Shown here: piece by piece, positions 44,503 to 57,714 of the stretch | How the letters are laid out: each line of letters opens with the position of its first letter | Position numbering within the stretch: position 1 is the first letter of the stretch | Origin: Pararhodobacter marinus | GTDB taxonomy: Bacteria; Pseudomonadota; Alphaproteobacteria; Rhodobacterales; Rhodobacteraceae | Assembly (NCBI RefSeq): GCF_003122215.1 | Contig: NZ_QEYD01000017.1 | Coordinates: 1-64,000, forward strand | Reading direction: 5' to 3' | DNA: 64,000 nucleotides | Position numbers and translations under genes: made by a program | The notes under the pieces: model-generated | Database searches by the model: none | The model's input: the letters and a program-made list of their open reading frames with translations, nothing else | What the model was told of the DNA's origin: nothing

Positions 44503-45132
44503 TTATGTTTTGGCAGCGCTGTCTTCTATGGTTTCAGCCATTCTTATTGCGGTTGCGGCGTGGATTCTGAGCTCGTGCGTTCGGCGGATGGGCCGCATTG
44601 GCGCATCCCTCCGGGTTAGCGTGAGCCGGATTGAAAACTTGGGACCGGAAGAAAGCCGCCACTCCAAGGATCGCCAGAACACCTTAGCCAGCCATAGCCT
44701 CAGCGAAGATCCCCAAGATGATGCTTCTCGGCGCAGCGCCGATGCGTCTGGGTAGACAACGAGCGCAAGGGTTCCGCTCTTCATTGGCTCTATAACCCCC
44801 TGGAGGGGCGCTGTGTCTGCGCCCCAGCTTTCGTGCTTGGTATCTGGTCTCCCGTCAAACCAGCGCTCGACACGTTGAATTGGACCACGGACGCGAACCC
44901 TGTCGGCGATCATCGTCTTGCTCGTTTGATTTAAGACGTGGCAAATGACGCGAAAGCACCCATGATGTATCTCAAGCTCCCACTCGACGGTCAGCTTCTG
45001 GCGCCTGTCCAGCCAGTTTGTTAAGGCGGTATATCCGGTGAACATCGCCGTGAGAAGTGCGGCGACAGAGCCGACCAGCGTAATCCAATTGTATGCTGAT
45101 GGGGCTCCAACCCATTCGAAAAACTCAACCAT
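44503..45132 (-). CDS. Membrane-anchored lysogenic protein of unknown function (moron)
   Basis: 209 residues. One N-terminal membrane segment (about residues 15-41, I-T-L-V-G-S-V-A-A-L-L-T-A-M-F) and a cytoplasmic beta-rich domain. It lies just downstream of the repressor on the same strand, with its own terminator, so it should be expressed in the lysogen. A superinfection-exclusion role is plausible by place; no family is recognised. Confidence 0.65.
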   Translation of the reverse strand: MVEFFEWVGAPSAYNWITLVGSVAALLTAMFTGYTALTNWLDRRQKLTVEWELEIHHGCFRVICHVLNQTSKTMIADRVRVRGPIQRVERWFDGRPDTKHESWGADTAPLQGVIEPMKSGTLALVVYPDASALRREASSWGSSLRLWLAKVFWRSLEWRLSSGPKFSIRLTLTRRDAPMRPIRRTHELRIHAATAIRMAETIEDSAAKT

Positions 45133-45174
45133 CCCCCCCTCACATATCCAGCATCGTCCGGTAGACGCGGGCGA

Positions 45175-47700: not shown

Positions 47701-47806
47701 CCCCCCATTCGACGGCAGAGCGTTGTCCCCGCGACGGGCGCTCGTGGTGCGCTATCCGGGGCGGCGCTGCCGTTGAAGCCCCGGCTTTACACGAAAGGGC
47801 CTCTGC

Positions 47807-47941
47807 ATGTGGGGAATTGCCTTCAGCCTCAACCCGCGCGCGTGGCGTCTCGGGAAACAGGATGCGCTCGAAGATGACGGGCGCGTCGTCGGCGTGTGGT
47901 GGTGCTTCGGCCCCATCGCGCTTTGCTACGACTACGAGTGA
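47807..47941 (+). CDS. Micro-ORF (44 residues)
   Basis: MWGIAFSLNPRAWRLGKQDA then D-G-R-V-V-G-V-W-W-C-F-G. AAAGGG lies upstream, and a 7-bp CCGGGGC/GCCCCGG hairpin ends shortly before it. The real-looking codon use and Trp-rich core support a small protein of unknown role. Confidence 0.5.
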   Translation: MWGIAFSLNPRAWRLGKQDALEDDGRVVGVWWCFGPIALCYDYE

Positions 47942-48105
47942 ATCCACGGGTTGGGAAGCCTCGGATGCCCGGCGCGAGGGCGGTTTCGCGCAATCCTCCC
48001 TGTTCAACTCTGGGGCGGCTCAGGTCGCCTCAGCTTTTCCCCAGCCGCTTTCCTGCGAGCGCCTTTCGGGCGCTGGCACGAGCGCAGCCAGCAAGGACCA
48101 GCCCC

Positions 48106-48276
48106 ATGCTTCTGATCGCAGCCTTTCTCTGGTGGCCGATGCCACCGCCCGAATTTCGCCCCGTGCGCTGGCCCCCATGCCCGGCGCGCGTGATGCGGGG
48201 TCCGCATGGATCACCCCGGCATTCGCCGCAACCGCCGGTTCTGGGGATCGGTATGGGGCCGCGTATGAGCGGATAG
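48106..48276 (+). CDS. Micro-ORF (56 residues)
   Basis: MLLIAAFLWWPMPPPEFRPV, hydrophobic start then Pro/Arg-rich. Preceded by an AGCGCC/GGCGCT hairpin and weak AAGGA. The function is unknown. Confidence 0.4.
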   Translation: MLLIAAFLWWPMPPPEFRPVRWPPCPARVMRGPHGSPRHSPQPPVLGIGMGPRMSG

Positions 48277-48285
48277 TTATTCAGC

Positions 48286-48309
48286 GCCGGGGCACCGCAT
48301 CGCCCCGGC
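48286..48309 (+). other. GC-rich hairpin GCCGGGGC/GCCCCGGC before micro-ORF 48343
   Basis: Perfect 8-bp stem with an 8-nt loop, 33 bp upstream of the next small ORF. Same layout as the hairpins before the 47482 and 47807 ORFs. Confidence 0.6.
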
Positions 48310-48342
48310 TAGTTCCGCCGCTTTCCGAAGGGCAGCTTCGCC

Positions 48343-48447
48343 ATGGCCGTGCACAGCCGTGGTCTCGCGATATGCGGGCTGTCCTTCCGAGCGCGGCACC
48401 CCATCAACCCCCCACCGCATCTGGACTGGTCGGCGCGGGCGGTTTGA
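48343..48447 (+). CDS. Possible micro-ORF (34 residues)
   Basis: MAVHSRGLAICGLSFRARHP; AAGGGC upstream. Supported only by its place in the hairpin-spaced series. The ~200 bp after it (48448-48648) has more hairpin-like GC repeats and no supported gene. Confidence 0.3.
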   Translation: MAVHSRGLAICGLSFRARHPINPPPHLDWSARAV

Positions 48448-48648
48448 TTGGTCGGCGCTACCAGTGCGCCACACCCGGCGCCGGTGCTGCGCTCTTTCCA
48501 TCCGGCGCTGTTGCCGGATCTGCGACCCATGACGGGCGCAGGCAAACCACCATGATGGTGAAACAGGACTGGCGCAACGACGGCGGTCTGTCCCTTTGTC
48601 CACTCGTCGGGGCCAGCGCGGTCCCGGCGCTTTTCCCGGAGAAACTCG

Positions 48649-49846: not shown

Positions 49847-50025
49847 CCTGGCAATCCATCGGACAGATCGCCCGCAGGCTCGTGGAGGCACAAAGTGACG
49901 CAAATCGTGCAGTTCCGGCAGGAAGAACAGATCCCGCACTCGGTTCCGGCGGAACAGCAGATCCTCGGCGCGATGCTGTGCCGGCAGGATCTGATCCCGT
50001 CCATCATGGCGCGGGGCGGGGCTGA
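49843..50025 (+). CDS. Possible short protein overlapping the dnaB start
   Basis: GTG start coupled to the GapR-like stop. The first ~17 residues (T-W-Q-S-I-G-Q-I-A-R-R-L-V-E-A) look genuine, but the rest overlaps the helicase frame. It may be a translational coupler for dnaB. Confidence 0.3.
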   Translation: MTWQSIGQIARRLVEAQSDANRAVPAGRTDPALGSGGTADPRRDAVPAGSDPVHHGAGRG

Positions 50026-51279
50026 CCTTTTCGCGGACCCCGTTCACGCCGCCATTTTCGAGGCAGCACGGGCCAAGGACGCTCGAGGCGAACTCGCATC
50101 GCCGGTCACGCTGGCGCCGCAGCTGGCAGAGCATCTTTCCGAGCTTGGCGGCTCGCGATACCTCGCCCGCCTTGCTGGCGCCGCAGCGGGCCGCACGGCT
50201 GCGAAGGCATACATCGACCAGCTGGCGGACCTTCGCGACAAGCGGCGCATCGTGGCGGCGCTGAGCGAGGCGAGGGCGGCGATGGTCGAAAGCAGCGCGG
50301 CCACCGTCGCGGCGCAGCTGGAGGCCGCTCTGGCGGTCATCCAGCCTGCCGTCGGCGAGAATGGCCCTGTCTCGATGATGTCCGCCACCATGAAGGCCAT
50401 GGAGCAGATCAGCGCCGCCTATGCCGGTGAGGATGACGGGTCGGTGAAGTCGGGAATCGGCGCGCTCGACACGTTGATTTCCGGCTTCTATCCCGGCGAA
50501 TTGACGCTGATTGGCGGCCGCCCGTCGATGGGGAAAACTGCCGTCGCACTGCAAGCCGCTCTGCACGTTGCCCGGGCCGGTCACGGCGTCTGCATCGCCT
50601 CGCTCGAGATGAACCCCGAAGCCATGGCCGTGCGGGCGCTGTCCGAGGCCACGGCCAATGCCGGGAACGGGGTGAACTACTCGAGCATGCGCCGCGGTGA
50701 AATGGCGGAGCATCAGGTCGACACCCTGCGCAAGGTCGCGACCCCGGTTGCCGATCTGCCGATCATGTTCCTGTCGCGCCAGCATTCCGACCTTGGCGCG
50801 CTCTATGCCGGAGCGAAGCAGGCAAAGCGGATGATGGGCGACAATCTCCGCCTGTTGGTGGTCGATTATGCCCAGCTTCTCAGGTCCAAGGCCAGCACGC
50901 GCTACGAGCAGATCACCGAGATCAGCATCGCGCTGAAGGCCCTTGCGGGTCAACTGAATGTCCCTGTCATCGCGCTGTCCCAGTTGTCTCGATCGCTCGA
51001 GAGCCGGGAAGACAAGCGCCCCCAGCTTTCCGACCTTCGCGAAAGCGGCCAGCTCGAGCAGGACGCGGACTGCATCATCTTCTGCTACCGCGACGAATAT
51101 TACCTCGAGCGCGAGCGCCCGGACGCTGACGATATCGAGGATTTCACGCTCTGGCAGCAGGCGATGGACAAGCAGCGGAACCGGCTCGAGCTGATCGTAG
51201 CCAAGCAGCGGCAGGGAAGCATCGGCACCGCGCGCCTCAAGTTCAACCCGGCACTGAACACTATCTGGGAGGACGAGTG

Positions 51280-51283
<4 letters not shown>
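49895..51283 (+). CDS. Replicative DNA helicase (DnaB-like)
   Basis: 462 residues from GTG 49895, with GGAGG six bases before. N-terminal domain with S-V-P-A-E-Q-Q-I-L-G-A-M-L. The RecA-like C-terminal domain has Walker A G-G-R-P-S-M-G-K-T (residues 207-215), B L-L-V-V-D-Y-A-Q-L-L and L-R-E-S-G-Q-L-E-Q-D-A-D. Prophage 2 thus replicates with its own helicase and the DUF1376 partner. Confidence 0.92.
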
Positions 51284-52065
<782 letters not shown>

Positions 52066-52686: not shown

Positions 52687-52838
52687 AGCGCGCCATGGAC
52701 GAGATCCGCCTCTTGCTCTCCGACAAGCTGCTGCTCTGGGCGCTGGCCATCGCTCCCGCTGATCACCCCGAGACCGAGGAACTGGCCTCATCGCTGCACT
52801 GGCTGTTCGCCAAGAAGCTCCGCCGGTTCACCCGATAA
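52683..52838 (+). CDS. Small helical phage protein
   Basis: 51 residues, MKRAMDEIRLLLSDKLLLWA, one amphipathic helix and a basic end. It lies directly before the NusG-like gene. The role is unknown. Confidence 0.55.
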   Translation: MKRAMDEIRLLLSDKLLLWALAIAPADHPETEELASSLHWLFAKKLRRFTR

Positions 52839-52864
52839 TCACACGCGCACAAAGCGAGGGACAC

Positions 52865-53455
52865 ATGACCATGCACAGCAGCTATTTCATCGGGCAGGTG
52901 ATCCAGCCGGAACCCACACGCCCGATCCAAGTCGGGGACATCGGCACGCCCACGTGGTACGCATTCCTTACCACGCCCCAGAAGGAAGGCTCGGCCAAAG
53001 CGTGGCTGGAAAAGAAGGGCGTCGAGGCGTGGTATCCGACCGAAACCCGCTGGCGCAAGATCGCCAAAGGGAAGATCAAGCGGAAGGAATACGAGGCGGT
53101 CCTTGTCCCTCGGTACATCTTCGCCCGGTTCACTGGCCGGCCGCAATGGGACCTGCTGAAAGCCAGCCGGTGGCTGACCGGCGTTGTCGGAATCGACGGC
53201 GTTCCCCTTCCGATCACCGACGAAACCCTGGCCGCAATGGAGCAGGTGCCCGCTCGACTGGCAGAGATCCGCGCCCGTGAGGAGGAGCGGCGCACGATCC
53301 GCCCCGGCGATCGGGTGCGCATCCGTGATGGAGCGATGGAGGGGTGGGTGGTCGAGGTTCGCAGCATCCACGCTGGTATTGCCCGCTTCATCGTCCCTTT
53401 GATGGGTGACCGCGAGACCGAGATGCAGGTTGATCGTCTTTCGAAGCAACAATGA
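52865..53455 (+). CDS. NusG/RfaH-like antitermination protein (NGN + KOW)
   Basis: 196 residues. An N-terminal ~30-residue extension is followed by the NGN domain: W-Y-A-F-L-T-T-P-Q-K-E, Y-P-T-E-T-R-W, L-V-P-R-Y-I-F-A-R-F and G-V-V-G-I. A helical linker leads to a KOW domain near residues 145-190 (R-P-G-D-R-V-R-I-R-D-G-A-M-E-G-W-V-V-E-V). It is the last gene before the late promoter/leader/terminator, the place of lambda Q, so an antiterminator or processivity factor for late transcription is inferred. Confidence 0.88.
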   Translation: MTMHSSYFIGQVIQPEPTRPIQVGDIGTPTWYAFLTTPQKEGSAKAWLEKKGVEAWYPTETRWRKIAKGKIKRKEYEAVLVPRYIFARFTGRPQWDLLKASRWLTGVVGIDGVPLPITDETLAAMEQVPARLAEIRAREEERRTIRPGDRVRIRDGAMEGWVVEVRSIHAGIARFIVPLMGDRETEMQVDRLSKQQ

Positions 53456-53456
53456 C

Positions 53457-53484
53457 TTGCGCGATGGTCAACCTATGGTATCTT
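53457..53484 (+). promoter_or_regulatory. Candidate late promoter (pR'-like)
   Basis: -35 TTGCGC (53457-53462) and -10 TATCTT (53479-53484), 16 bp apart, just after the NusG-like stop. The transcript would start near 53491 and run through a structured leader. Confidence 0.5.
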
Positions 53485-53620
53485 GGGCGCACCCGGTGAC
53501 GGTCGGTAGCCGGGGCGCCCTCGATATACGAGGCAGCGTTGCGGCACCGAGGGACAAAGCCGAGGCCCTGCATCATGCAACGCCACAACGGAGAAATTGC
53601 GCCCAGCCGATAGATTGACA
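53485..53620 (+). ncRNA. Structured late leader RNA (hypothetical)
   Basis: GGGCGC (53485-53490) pairs with GCGCCC (53515-53520) around a GC-rich loop; CCTCG-atata-CGAGG at 53519-53533 is a second hairpin sharing two bases with the first. No ORF fits. The layout, leader then terminator, resembles leaders where antiterminators load. Confidence 0.45.
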
Positions 53621-53623
53621 CGC

Positions 53624-53654
53624 TCCCGCCCGGTACGCCGCGCGGGGTTTTGTT
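53624..53654 (+). terminator. Intrinsic terminator-like hairpin before the terminase genes
   Basis: TCCCGC/GCGGGG stem (one G-U pair) with a 12-nt loop and TTTTGTTT. It would stop unmodified late transcripts ~165 nt from the promoter. Confidence 0.65.
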
Positions 53655-53655
53655 T

Positions 53656-53823
53656 CTACTCCCTCACATCCTCGGTTCCTTCGAGTATCTCCAGAACACG
53701 GACGATCAGCGCAGCGGCGGTGTGCCTATCCACCCCGCAGTCGATGGCCGCTTTCCCGATAGCGTGCGCTACCTCGTCATACCCAGCCCGAGGGGTGGGG
53801 TCGGGTAGCCCGGTATCTGGCAT
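53656..53823 (-). CDS. Small antisense-oriented protein before the terminase
   Basis: 55 residues, MPDTGLPDPTPRAGYDEVAH, helical C-terminal part; AGGAGG precedes the ATG. It points against the late genes and lies between the terminator and TerS. The function is unknown. Confidence 0.6.
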   Translation of the reverse strand: MPDTGLPDPTPRAGYDEVAHAIGKAAIDCGVDRHTAAALIVRVLEILEGTEDVRE

Positions 53824-53921
53824 TTCATGGTCCTCCTGCCGAGAAGGCACGATTTTTGCCATGCAGAAGGTGATTCTGGAAGCTTGTTCAACACCTTGGA
53901 AAAGCCAAACTGGAGAACGAC

Positions 53922-54425
53922 ATGGCCGACCCCGCCAAAGGGCCGGGCGGCAAGCTGACGCCGAAGCAAGAAGCCTTCGCCCTCGCATTCTTTGAGACCG
54001 GCAACGCCGCTGAGGCCTACCGTCGCGCCTATGACGTGAGCGAGAATGCCCGCGATCATTGGATCTACGTCGAGGCCGGACAGCTCCTCGACCACCCTGA
54101 GGTTACCCTGAGGCTCCAAGAGCTTCGTGAGCACGCCGAGCGGCATGCCATCTACACCCGGCAGAAGGCCATGGAAGAGCTGGAGGAAGCCCGCGAAACG
54201 GCAAGGGTGAACGCCCAGGCCGCCGCTATGGTCAGCGCCACATCGGCCAAGATCAAGCTGCTGGGCCTCGATAAGCCCGCGCGGCTGGAGGTCACGAGCC
54301 CGGACGGCAGCATGAGCCCCAAGCCTGCCGTCCTGCTGGCCAACCTGTCGGACGAGGAGCTCGCCCAGCTTGAACGCCTTACCGACAAAGCGCGACATTC
54401 AGAGGGAGTGGGCGAGAAGGAATAG
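53922..54425 (+). CDS. Terminase small subunit (Terminase_2/TerS)
   Basis: 167 residues. N-terminal L-T-P-K-Q-E-A-F-A-L-A-F-F-E-T-G-N-A-A-E-A-Y-R is the TerS HTH signature; helical oligomerisation and C-terminal regions follow. It recognises the packaging site for the TerL encoded next. Confidence 0.87.
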   Translation: MADPAKGPGGKLTPKQEAFALAFFETGNAAEAYRRAYDVSENARDHWIYVEAGQLLDHPEVTLRLQELREHAERHAIYTRQKAMEELEEARETARVNAQAAAMVSATSAKIKLLGLDKPARLEVTSPDGSMSPKPAVLLANLSDEELAQLERLTDKARHSEGVGEKE

Positions 54426-55830
54426 CCTCGGCTTCGCCCGGTTCTTCTTCCCGGCCCGAGAGGGCATGGACCTGATCGAGGGGCCTCACCATCGGGTGAT
54501 CGGCGCCACGCTTGACCGCGTGCTGGCCGGGGAAATTACGCGGCTGCTGATCACGCTCCCGCCCGGCTACACCAAGACCGAAATGGCGGTGGTAAACTTC
54601 ATCGCCAGGGGCTTTGCCATCAACCCGGCGGCGCGGTTTATCCACGCGACCTTTTCAGACGACCTCGCCCGGGAGAACAGCGACAAGATCAAGAGCCTGA
54701 TCGAGCTTCCCGAGTTCAGCGAAATTCAGCGGGTTACCATCCGGTCAGACACAAGCGCAAAGGATCGCTGGAAGACCAATGAGGGCGGCGGGATGCTCGC
54801 CAAGGCCGCAGGCGGTCCGATCACCGGCTTTCGGGCCGGGTACATGGACAAGGCGGTGTTCACCGGTGCGCTCGTGGTGGACGATCCGCTCAAGCCCGAC
54901 GACGCATTCAGCCCAGCGAAGCGCGCCGCGGTCAACAAGAGGGCGACCAACACCTTCCGCAGCCGACTTGCGCACGAGGGCGTGCCCATCGTGGTCATCA
55001 TGCAGCGCCTGCACGGCGACGATTTCGCTGGGCACCTTCTGAAAGGCGGAACCGGCGAGGTCTGGGATCACCTCGATCTGCCGGTGCTGATCGACCGCAG
55101 CGCGGAATACCCGAAGGAATGGACACACGGGCGCCCTGTGCCGCACGACCTACCGGATGGCCCGCTCTGGCCGGAAAAGCATTCCGAGGCAGAGATCGAG
55201 GTCTTGAAGGCCGACGCCTATACCTTTGCCAGCCAGTACATGCAGCGCCCTGTCGGTATCGAGGGCGCGCTGTTCAACATGGACGGCTTCGAATGGTGGT
55301 CCGAACTGCCTGAGTTCGAGTGGACGTGCATGTTCGCGGACACCGCGATGAAGACCGGCGAGCGGAACGACTATTCCGTGATTCAGCTATGGGGGAAGGC
55401 AGCGCGCGGGATTTACCTGATCGACCAGGTGCGCGGCAAATGGGAAGCGCCAGAGCTAGAGCGCACCGCGCTGGCGTTCTGGGCCAAGGCAAAGGCTGGG
55501 GGCTATCACCCGCGCGGCCTGCGCGTCGAGGACAAGGCATCTGGAACGGGCCTTATCCAGTCCATTCGTCGGCAGGGGAACATCCCCATCACCGGTATCA
55601 AGCGGGAGCGGGACAAGTTCACGCGCGGGCTGGACGCATCGCCTTGGATTGCCAGCGGCCAGGTCTTTCTGCCGGCCAACGCGCAATGGACCCCCGCGCT
55701 GCGCCATGAGCTGCAGATCTTCGACGGCCTCGGCGCGGGGCATGACGACCAGGTGGATCCGCTGATGGATGCCATCAATGAAATGCTGGACGGCCGGAAG
55801 GTCGGCTACACCTATTCCATCGCGCTCTAA
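54370..55830 (+). CDS. Terminase large subunit (TerL)
   Basis: 486 residues, read here from TTG 54370; it overlaps TerS by 56 bp, so the true start is uncertain. ATPase: P-P-G-Y-T-K-T P-loop (near residue 63), Walker B A-L-V-V-D-D-P. The RNase-H-like nuclease has F-A-D-T-A-M-K and G-H-D-D-Q-V-D. Packages DNA through the DUF1073 portal encoded downstream. Confidence 0.9.
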   Translation: MNALPTKRDIQREWARRNSLGFARFFFPAREGMDLIEGPHHRVIGATLDRVLAGEITRLLITLPPGYTKTEMAVVNFIARGFAINPAARFIHATFSDDLARENSDKIKSLIELPEFSEIQRVTIRSDTSAKDRWKTNEGGGMLAKAAGGPITGFRAGYMDKAVFTGALVVDDPLKPDDAFSPAKRAAVNKRATNTFRSRLAHEGVPIVVIMQRLHGDDFAGHLLKGGTGEVWDHLDLPVLIDRSAEYPKEWTHGRPVPHDLPDGPLWPEKHSEAEIEVLKADAYTFASQYMQRPVGIEGALFNMDGFEWWSELPEFEWTCMFADTAMKTGERNDYSVIQLWGKAARGIYLIDQVRGKWEAPELERTALAFWAKAKAGGYHPRGLRVEDKASGTGLIQSIRRQGNIPITGIKRERDKFTRGLDASPWIASGQVFLPANAQWTPALRHELQIFDGLGAGHDDQVDPLMDAINEMLDGRKVGYTYSIAL

Positions 55831-55839
55831 GGGGGCGGC

Positions 55840-57714
55840 ATGACCAAACCGCACTACCGCCGCACCGCCGATGGCCGCACCGTCATGTTGCACGATGGGT
55901 ATCGCAATCTTGTCGCCAATCTCGGCACCGATCGCGACAAGGCCTATCACGGCAGCTATGTGCTGAACCTGCTGGACGCGCATTCCCTGCTGACGATCTA
56001 CCGATCCGCATGGTTGCCTCAGGCCATCGTGGACATCCCGGCCCTGGACGCGGTGCGCAACTGGCGCTCGTGGCAAGCAAAGCCGGATCAGATCACGCAG
56101 CTGGAAGCCGAGGAAAGGCGGCTTGGCCTGCGCGAGAAGACGCGCGATGCCCTCAAGGCCGCTCGTCTCTACGGCGGTGCCGGCATCCTCATGCTGGACG
56201 GCTCGTCTGACCCGACGAAGCCGTTGAACCCCGAGCGGATCAGGAAAGGCGGCCTGAAGGGGCTTGTCGTCGTGACGCCCATGCAGATCTCGCCGGGCGA
56301 GATCGAGCGCGACCCCGAGAGCCCATTCTATGGGCGCCCTGCCTATTACAGCCTGTCCACCGGCACCAAGGCGGCAGAGCAAATCCACCCCTCCCGTCTT
56401 GCTGTCTTCGATGGTGTCCCGGTGCCCGATGCGGCGACCGTGTCGACGGGGTGGGGCGACAGCGTTCTGCTCGCCGCGATGGACGCGATCAATCACGCCG
56501 ATGGCTTTGTGGCGAATGTCGCGGCACTGGCGCACGAGGCCAAGATTGACGTGATCCACATCCCGCGCCTCATGGAAATGCTGGCGTCGGGGCAGGAGGC
56601 TGCAATCACCGAGCGCTTGATGCTCGGCATGAGGAACAAGGGGACGAATGGCGCCCTGGTGTTGGACGGGGGCGGCACCATTCCCGGCTCGTCCGAGGTG
56701 CGCGGCAAGGAGGAATACGAGCAGAAATCCGCGAGCTTCAGCGGCCTCGATGCGCTCTGGGATCGCTTCATGATGGTGGTCTCGGGCGCAACGAAGCTTC
56801 CGATCCCGGTGTCACGGATCTTCGGTCGCTCCGCTGCAGGGATGAATGCCACCGGCGACGGTGACGAGCGGGTTTACTTCGATGGCGTCAAGGCCATGCA
56901 GGAGCTGGAAGTGGGCCCGGCCATGGCAGCGCTGGACGAATGCCTGATCCGCTCCGCGCTTGGGGCGAGGCCTGCAGAAATCTTCTACGCATGGCGCCCG
57001 CTGCGCCAGGAAACCGAGGAAACTAAGGCCAAGGTCTTCAAGATGGTGGCCGATGCTGCGCGGGTTCTGGCCGGCCCGAACGGGATGATCCTGCCCGAGG
57101 AAGCCATTTCGGAGGCCGTCGCCAATCGCCTGATCGAAGACGGCTCGCTGCCCGGCCTTGAGGCGGCAATGGAGAAATACAACTGGCTGCCGGATGACAG
57201 CGATGGTTCGCCGGGCCAAAGTCCCGATGGCTCAGACAGCGCCGTGGTGACGGACAGCGCGCCCCGCACGCTCTACGTCAGCCGCAAGGTTCTTAATGCC
57301 GGGGAAATCATCCGCTGGGCCAAGTCGCAGGGCTTTGGCAAGACGCTCAACGCGTCCGATCTGCATGTGACGGTCGCGTTTAGCCGGACGCCGGTTGACT
57401 GGATGGAATGTGGCGAAAGCTGGCAGGGCCGGGTCGAGGTAGAGGCAGGCGGGCCGAGGCAAATGGAGCGCTTCGGCGAGGCGCGTGTCCTGCTGTTTGC
57501 CAGCAACGACCTGCATTGGCGACATGAGCGCTTCAAGGAAGCAGGAGCTTCGTGGGATCACCCACAATACCAGCCTCACATCACCATCAGCTACGACCCG
57601 GAGGCGCCGAGCATCGACGATATCGAGCCTTACCAGGGGCCGATCATCCTCGGGCCGGAGATCTTCGCGGAGGTCCAAGAAGACTGGGCCGCGCGCATCG
57701 AGGAAACAGAATGA
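55840..57714 (+). CDS. DUF1073 portal protein fused to a C-terminal 2H (Acb1-like) domain
   Basis: 624 residues. Residues ~1-440 are a DUF1073 portal (R-S-A-W-L-P-Q-A-I-V-D-I-P, A-R-L-Y-G-G-A-G-I-L, S-G-A-T-K-L-P-I-P-V). After a Ser/Asp/Gly linker, residues ~475-620 form a 2H phosphoesterase with two H-x-T motifs, H509-V-T511 and H580-I-T582, 71 residues apart, as in the anti-CBASS nuclease Acb1 (two H-x-T motifs). Such domains cleave 2'-5'/3'-5' cyclic oligonucleotide signals. Confidence 0.87.
   Translation: MTKPHYRRTADGRTVMLHDGYRNLVANLGTDRDKAYHGSYVLNLLDAHSLLTIYRSAWLPQAIVDIPALDAVRNWRSWQAKPDQITQLEAEERRLGLREKTRDALKAARLYGGAGILMLDGSSDPTKPLNPERIRKGGLKGLVVVTPMQISPGEIERDPESPFYGRPAYYSLSTGTKAAEQIHPSRLAVFDGVPVPDAATVSTGWGDSVLLAAMDAINHADGFVANVAALAHEAKIDVIHIPRLMEMLASGQEAAITERLMLGMRNKGTNGALVLDGGGTIPGSSEVRGKEEYEQKSASFSGLDALWDRFMMVVSGATKLPIPVSRIFGRSAAGMNATGDGDERVYFDGVKAMQELEVGPAMAALDECLIRSALGARPAEIFYAWRPLRQETEETKAKVFKMVADAARVLAGPNGMILPEEAISEAVANRLIEDGSLPGLEAAMEKYNWLPDDSDGSPGQSPDGSDSAVVTDSAPRTLYVSRKVLNAGEIIRWAKSQGFGKTLNASDLHVTVAFSRTPVDWMECGESWQGRVEVEAGGPRQMERFGEARVLLFASNDLHWRHERFKEAGASWDHPQYQPHITISYDPEAPSIDDIEPYQGPIILGPEIFAEVQEDWAARIEETE

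Follow-up and report, generated by a model that had tools for sequence, protein, structure and literature searches.

We analyzed a stretch of 64,000 nucleotides from Pararhodobacter marinus, referred to below as the window, and concentrated on a prophage gene for a NusG paralogue that lies between early and late genes. This plus-strand gene (52865–53455) encodes a 196-aa protein with NGN and KOW domains and occupies the position that Q holds in lambda. Upstream of it is an early replication block with a DnaB-type helicase gene (49895–51283, +) and a DUF1376/primosomal gene (51277–52065), and an S24-type repressor gene is found farther upstream. On the other side lie the first late gene, which encodes the terminase small subunit TerS (53922–54425, +), the gene for the phrog_38 terminase large subunit (54370–55830, +), and portal and capsid genes. 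The layout is of the lambda Q type: replication genes, an antiterminator gene, a leader and a terminator, and then the late genes. The lambda Q slot proposed in the initial annotation is thus borne out by the replication genes upstream and the terminases downstream, although TerS starts only at 53922, behind a 266-nt gap that follows the terminator and contains a minus-strand ORF of unassigned family (53656–53988). TerS may conceivably have a separate promoter in this gap. The portal protein gene (55840–57714, +) is an apparent portal-Acb1 fusion; C-terminal residues 476–618 of its product match the anti-CBASS protein Acb1 (Pfam PF23474, 1.5e-44).

Several lines of comparison agree with the earlier description of the 52865 product as an NGN+KOW protein. 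Its NGN domain scored 49.2 bits against PF02357 (cut-off 22.2), the Pfam NusG match (7.7e-13) covers residues 30–125, and PHROG 6386, "transcription antiterminator", was matched over residues 25–181 (1.5e-14). A profile built from the product and 13 relatives matched NusG chains in the PDB, and the best-matching stretches extended across the KOW domain. The AlphaFold model is of modest confidence (pLDDT 69.7, pTM 0.52) and, at that confidence, consists of an NGN part and a beta-type C-terminal domain; the top Foldseek matches for this model were NusG, with low whole-chain TM-scores of about 0.35. The KOW assignment comes from the PDB profile alignment together with the modelled beta domain, since Pfam KOW4_SPT5 alone reached 14.7 bits, below its cut-off of 27. 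At E values up to 0.1, Pfam returned NusG and the SPT5 KOW domain, PHROGs returned phrog_6386 only, and no Q protein family was matched in either collection. The product missed the family cut-offs for RfaH (TIGR01955; 45.4 vs 144.5 bits), UpxY (NF033644; 62.7 vs 100 bits) and LoaP (NF033641; 14.7 vs 125 bits), the three families with which a structural comparison had been suggested, as well as that for housekeeping NusG (NCBIfam TIGR00922; 24.3 vs 135.7 bits). The source genome contains one other NusG-family match, which is much stronger (E 4.5e-25) and is taken as the housekeeping gene. PHROG 6386 was discarded as a search family, as it matched 372 of 394 genomes and did not separate the phage paralogues from housekeeping NusG.

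Behind the NusG gene, an intrinsic terminator is predicted at 53625–53655 (+). It comprises an 8-bp hairpin with one mismatch and a UACG loop (53625–53646; CCCGC-C-CGG-UACG-CCG-C-GCGGG) and a U-tract at 53648–53655. In our own terminator scan, it was the strongest plus-strand site in the region from 39 to 64 kb. With both strands counted, two sites were at least as strong, compared with an average of 0.15 per sequence in 20 Markov-randomised sequences. The terminator-like hairpin first noted at 53624–53654 therefore stands above chance. A consensus terminator tool did not list the site, probably because of the internal mismatch. Folding of the leader predicted two plus-strand hairpins, a long interrupted stem at 53503–53550 and a shorter one at 53564–53584 (GGC-CC-UGCA-UCA-UGCA-AC-GCC). 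The first 95 nt of the leader folded better than 198 of 200 shuffles (z −2.4), while the whole 170 nt was not exceptional (z −1.4; 19 of 200 shuffles as good), so that the two-hairpin leader originally described is supported in its first part and unremarkable at full length. The window leader had no match in Rfam 15 up to an E value of 1. The promoter is the weak point of the switch. The pair originally placed at 53457–53484, TTGCGC (53457–53462) and TATCTT (53479–53484) with a 16-nt spacer, could not be confirmed on its own: no promoter between 51000 and 55000 passed 9 of 12 consensus positions, and the hexamers can also be read as ATGACT (53452–53457) and TATGGT (53474–53479), again 16 nt apart on the plus strand. 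The latter reading overlaps the NusG stop codon, as in relatives, and the choice of hexamers is uncertain.

The NusG gene, leader and terminator recur together in a second prophage whose immediate flanks are unlike those in the window. An 814-bp block (52838–53651, +), which runs from 27 nt before the NusG start codon into the U-tract, has a counterpart of 95% identity in a prophage of Rhodobacter sp. NTK016B, and the proteins flanking the block gave no blastp match between the two prophages. Within the gene, 29 of 32 differences are at third positions and a single amino acid is changed. The leader differs by 4 substitutions and one indel in 196 nt, a slower change than that at the fourfold sites of the gene (4/196 vs 20/105; Fisher 5e-7). 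An extended comparison of 18 kb of NTK016B with the whole window detected five stretches of 42–88 nt and 92–98% identity outside the block (window 45129–45170 and 47704–48541), and no similarity from 48.5 kb to the block or behind it. The two prophages have these further mosaic pieces in common upstream; the five stretches are embedded in otherwise unmatched sequence ahead of the replication genes. The region behind the block in NTK016B has no similarity to the minus-strand ORF at 53656–53988.

Among 18 genomes of the genus, the block was present in two, the source genome and one (G653) in which it occupies the same contig place as in NTK016B. A 31-nt match to the terminator in a further genome (G660) was rejected as a copy of the block, as it lies inside a 587-aa ORF with no NusG gene nearby. 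Searching 390 genomes of the order with the window leader by blastn yielded seven genomes besides its own, all of which we judged from the ORF lists by eye to be unrelated coding sequence. The leader had no match in phages, the whole block had none in plasmids, and tblastn of four NusG paralogues found none in 50,697 phage records. The leader type of the window is thus known in two copies, too few for a covariation test, and the case for the window itself is built on the block common to both prophages, on the slower divergence of the leader, on the terminator and on a layout like that of relatives.

Relatives were more numerous in a sister clade of phage NusG paralogues, where a different, covarying leader RNA lies behind the NusG gene. 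When viral contigs were scanned with an alignment, 19 loci came up, the window's own contig among them, and the conserved leader was recognized by reading the sequence behind the NusG paralogues of such loci. RNAalifold predicted 31 pairs from 16 leaders, 15 of them with changes on both sides. A model built from this 16-leader alignment, termed R1, matched 26 places in the 35 sources given to it. A wider protein scan brought the sister clade to 42 loci, and 36 of these carry the R1 leader: 17 contigs have a leader that is in the model or identical to one in it, 18 are new, and one of the 36 (L162) is a contig first found by pattern. Thirty-five loci scored at least 44 bits. The remaining match, in L166, is weak (23.9 bits), as weak as R1 matches that we dismissed elsewhere. 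The six loci without R1 are L156, where the contig ends, and the divergent L168–L172. In 34 of the 36 loci, no more than 40 nt separate the leader from the NusG stop codon; in the other two, the leader is found 1.3 and 3.0 kb downstream. A scan with the core pattern of these leaders returned 13 contigs, nine with the leader (L097 and eight on contigs already found by protein) and four that were chance matches.

The R1 alignment contains 44 matches in 37 distinct rows, partial second copies in L134 and L135 included. In the 37-row alignment, 94.8% of cells are paired, and the covariation score is 0.490, as compared to 0.184 (sd 0.010) in shuffles and 0.043–0.087 when the alignment was slid. Fitting to the structure biases this alignment in its favour; an alignment made without structure (A2) gave covariation before R1 fitting. 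The leader is organized as a P1 helix around P2, a P3 helix with a nearly invariant GGUU...AACGC loop, and a P4 helix that is the terminator. When 16 loci, including that of NTK016B and sister-clade ones, were compared with Rfam, nothing reached the gathering score except one tRNA, and one sister-clade leader searched up to an E value of 1 gave a single antisense match (E 0.8) far below the gathering score. Judged from its sequence covariation, the sister-clade leader is a well-supported structured RNA outside Rfam 15.

Some loci depart from the common arrangement. In L134 and L135 (the contigs also listed as L077 and L078), a 186-aa ORF starts in or directly behind the leader, and a second, partial leader match of 31.7 bits follows about 630 nt after the first, as if the leader had been split or duplicated by an insertion. 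The Rfam tRNA lies in L080 (3732–3803), directly behind the leader terminator, and the sequence behind the leader in L006 resembles that of L080 by eye.

The association with NusG was also seen when R1 was run with the protein ignored. In 292 genomes of the order there were five matches, and the three strong ones (L113, 168.6 bits; L114, 54.2 bits; L115, 44.2 bits) were all directly behind a NusG paralogue, whereas the two weak ones (25.3 and 23.2 bits) were not preceded by one. L114 is a new locus; L113 and L115 are probably the same phages as L083 (whose leader is in the model) and L167, respectively, because their R1 scores are exactly equal. In 230 genomes of the class, a single weak match was obtained (L263, 26.2 bits), again without NusG. 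Because of the stricter filters applied in both scans, divergent copies may have escaped detection. The weak matches L117 and L263, which lack NusG, were read as plain terminators. The weak match L116 was likewise set aside: it covers the terminator half only and stands before a late operon related to sister-clade ones, with a TTGACA promoter of its own, and the remainder of the leader and a NusG paralogue were both absent from the 3.1 kb covered.

We then compared the distribution of leader types with a tree of 56 proteins. The tree included 28 of the 36 R1 loci, and these fall into one clade (support 0.995), which also contains L168, a member without R1. Nine window-type proteins form a second clade (support 0.988), which does not include L124, L125, L128 and L129, although these had been retrieved by means of the window's alignment. 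The remaining NusG-family proteins in the tree branch apart from both clades. R1 had no match in any of the window-clade loci given to it, scored at best 3.4 bits on the window leader itself, and, under the stricter filters, was absent from the source genome. Five window-clade relatives (L107, L109, L110, L120 and L121) have another leader type with an invariant GTGAGTA at an early place (5/5), while L119, whose protein is 49% identical to that of the window, has no GTGAGTA. L107 and L110 have a conserved stretch of leader where the HNH gene starts, 3.8 and 4.5 kb away from NusG. The helices of the GTGAGTA leaders look compensated by eye only. The resemblance of these leaders to the window leader is not convincing, as fragments that are alike by eye were not significant against shuffles (p 0.03–0.37 per pair, uncorrected). 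A scan with a GTGAGTA-type motif gave 77 matches on 76 contigs, one with both GTGAGTA and NusG; a longer motif gave eight contigs, one with NusG; a pattern scan of 394 genomes gave a single match, beside the NusG of L109; a 22-nt piece gave one contig.

The terminases behind the switch belong to several PHROG families (phrog_9, 15, 38 and 10250), and late genes can be similar behind different leaders. The GTGAGTA leader of L121 precedes a gene for a TerL that shares 51% identity with the TerL of L139, and the latter is found behind a sister-clade leader. Similarly, NTK016B has a TerL 46–48% identical to that of L163, a phage with the sister-clade switch, and an HNH/AAA-type protein 46% identical to one in L138. 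By these sequence comparisons, a change of NusG type goes with a change of leader type, while the terminases vary and late genes are sometimes related across types.

In contrast to the window, the sister clade has a clear promoter. Among 34 of the 36 R1 loci (31 distinct; two contigs with copies of others were excluded), TTGAC is at the expected place in all 34. The hexamer is TTGACA in 24 of the 31 distinct leaders, and TAnnnT follows exactly 18 nt after the TTGACN hexamer in 29 of them. In 31 of the 36 loci, the NusG gene ends with the TGA that forms part of the −35 element. This promoter precedes the terminator and has the same place as the window candidate ATGACT-16-TATGGT. Beyond the terminator, the distance to the next ORF of at least 60 codons was measurable in 32 of the 36 loci: this ORF begins 10–27 nt after the hairpin in 23, 44–62 nt after it in seven, and 152 nt after it in two (L137 and L138), L137 being the contig of L080, where the tRNA comes after the leader. 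At 10–27 nt, a separate promoter would overlap the terminator, so that transcription entering from ahead of the terminator is the simplest way to express the late genes of those 23 loci. L154 and L160 carry inserted ORFs between NusG and the leader and still have the leader, with a TTGACA-18-TATGTT promoter, in front of their late genes. Insertions at this spot, behind phage NusG and before the late leader, are seen in L154 (4628–5890), L160 (4628–7648), L107 and L110; the insertion in L160 carries an AAA_21-type ATPase gene with a Pfam "putative AbiEii toxin" domain.

Taken together, the shared block, the covarying leader of the sister clade, the promoter before the terminator and the closely spaced next ORFs support the late antitermination switch suggested at the outset. 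The locus in the window is probably the late-gene switch of a lambdoid-type prophage, in which a NusG paralogue and the leader that belongs to it would bring about lambda-Q-like processive antitermination. The early operon would end with the NusG paralogue gene. RNA polymerase would start just behind this gene, make a short leader and normally stop at 53625–53655. Once sufficient phage NusG has accumulated, the protein may join the polymerase during leader transcription, guided by the leader, and the loaded polymerase would resist this terminator and later ones, leading to expression of terminase, head and tail genes. We infer the role of phage NusG as the cause of read-through, its loading through the leader and the order of these events in time; whether it would recognize RNA or non-template DNA is likewise a matter of inference.

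The latter point bears on the strongest alternative, which we regard as unlikely. The same switch could operate with loading through a non-template-strand DNA element at a promoter-proximal pause, as for RfaH at ops, with the RNA structure serving only to time pausing. Early in the window leader, GGTCGGTAGCC (53501–53511) looks ops-like by eye, and the GTGAGTA of the five window-clade relatives has a similarly early place. However, ops-like sites with up to two mismatches are no commoner in the window than chance predicts (75 vs 73 expected, with one plus-strand site early in the leader at 53502–53513), and the compensated helices of the sister clade point to RNA.

We consider it distinctly improbable that the leader RNA alone makes polymerase terminator-resistant, as the put RNA of phage HK022 does, with the NusG paralogue adding processivity or protection from Rho. 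The highly structured and conserved sister-clade leader would suit such a role, but leader class and NusG clade change together, and the leader itself ends in a terminator. Still less probable is that the early operon simply ends at the hairpin, with the leader as its 3′ UTR and the NusG paralogue acting elsewhere. The start of the leader within 40 nt of the NusG stop in most sister-clade loci fits this explanation. It is opposed by L154 and L160, where ORFs intervene and promoter and leader have stayed with the late genes, by L107 and L110 with their leader stretch kilobases away from NusG, and by the 23 loci, out of 32 measurable, in which the hairpin and the following ORF are too close together to accommodate a promoter. 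Finally, a free-standing small RNA with its own target, placed before the late genes incidentally, would agree with the leader's size of about 130 nt and with its having a promoter and a terminator, and has a parallel in the similar 6S RNA made by lambda, but it is highly improbable given that strong R1 matches come after a NusG paralogue and that the late genes of most measurable loci have no room for another promoter.

In lambda, the promoter pR′ lies right behind the antiterminator gene Q, and a short leader with the terminator tR′ (the source of 6S RNA) precedes the late genes. The proposed switch in the window resembles this system in gene position, in the candidate promoter behind the antiterminator gene, in the leader and terminator before late genes, and in being a module of gene and site. 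It differs in that the protein is a NusG paralogue rather than a member of the Q family, and the sister clade differs further in that its leader is a conserved structured RNA. The put RNA of HK022 is also a structured leader tied to phage antitermination, but it acts without a phage protein, whereas here leader class and NusG clade go together. NusG paralogues such as RfaH, LoaP and UpxY are known for serving long host operons. LoaP uses a leader hairpin in the dfn and mln leaders of Bacillus, according to the sections of PMC12691694 consulted, and thus has in common with the window a NusG paralogue, a leader hairpin and read-through of an intrinsic terminator, the last being predicted for the window. 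LoaP acts on antibiotic operons rather than phage late genes, its family model is missed by the window protein, and no dfn-type hairpin was identified in the window, where a UACG loop is present but within the terminator hairpin itself, closed by G-C. RfaH is likewise a specialized NusG paralogue, with processive antitermination also likely in the window; there, however, the equivalog score is missed, ops-like sites are at chance and the C-terminal domain is modelled as beta with modest confidence. The portions of Wang et al. (2020; PMC7593976) available to us mention rfaH-like genes on prophages. GafZ, the late antiterminator of the Caulobacter gene transfer agent, works with host NusA, NusG and NusE and, like the window switch, places an alphaproteobacterial phage-like late cluster under antitermination control; in the parts of PMC11150451 considered here it is not described as a NusG paralogue. 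The corresponding parts of a NusG review (PMC7819879) describe no phage late switch, and the literature searched, to which this statement is confined, yielded no report of a phage late switch of the NusG type.

Late processive antitermination is thus known in kind, and we rate as new the NusG paralogue in the place of Q together with a leader RNA. With dozens of related phage sequences carrying such pairs, this looks like an undescribed late-gene switch. More tentatively, and at somewhat less than even confidence, phages of Rhodobacter relatives may use several unrelated leader RNAs, each with its own NusG clade, as an exchangeable, RNA-addressed system replacing Q, with the P3 apical loop (GGUU...AACGC in a covarying stem) as the docking site in the large clade. 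NusG paralogues here stand in the place of a phage late regulator, accompanied by a compact leader and terminator, and their natural pairs and swaps would allow the target choice of NusG paralogues, and the use of RNA as opposed to non-template DNA, to be tested with a leader reporter of about 200 nt.
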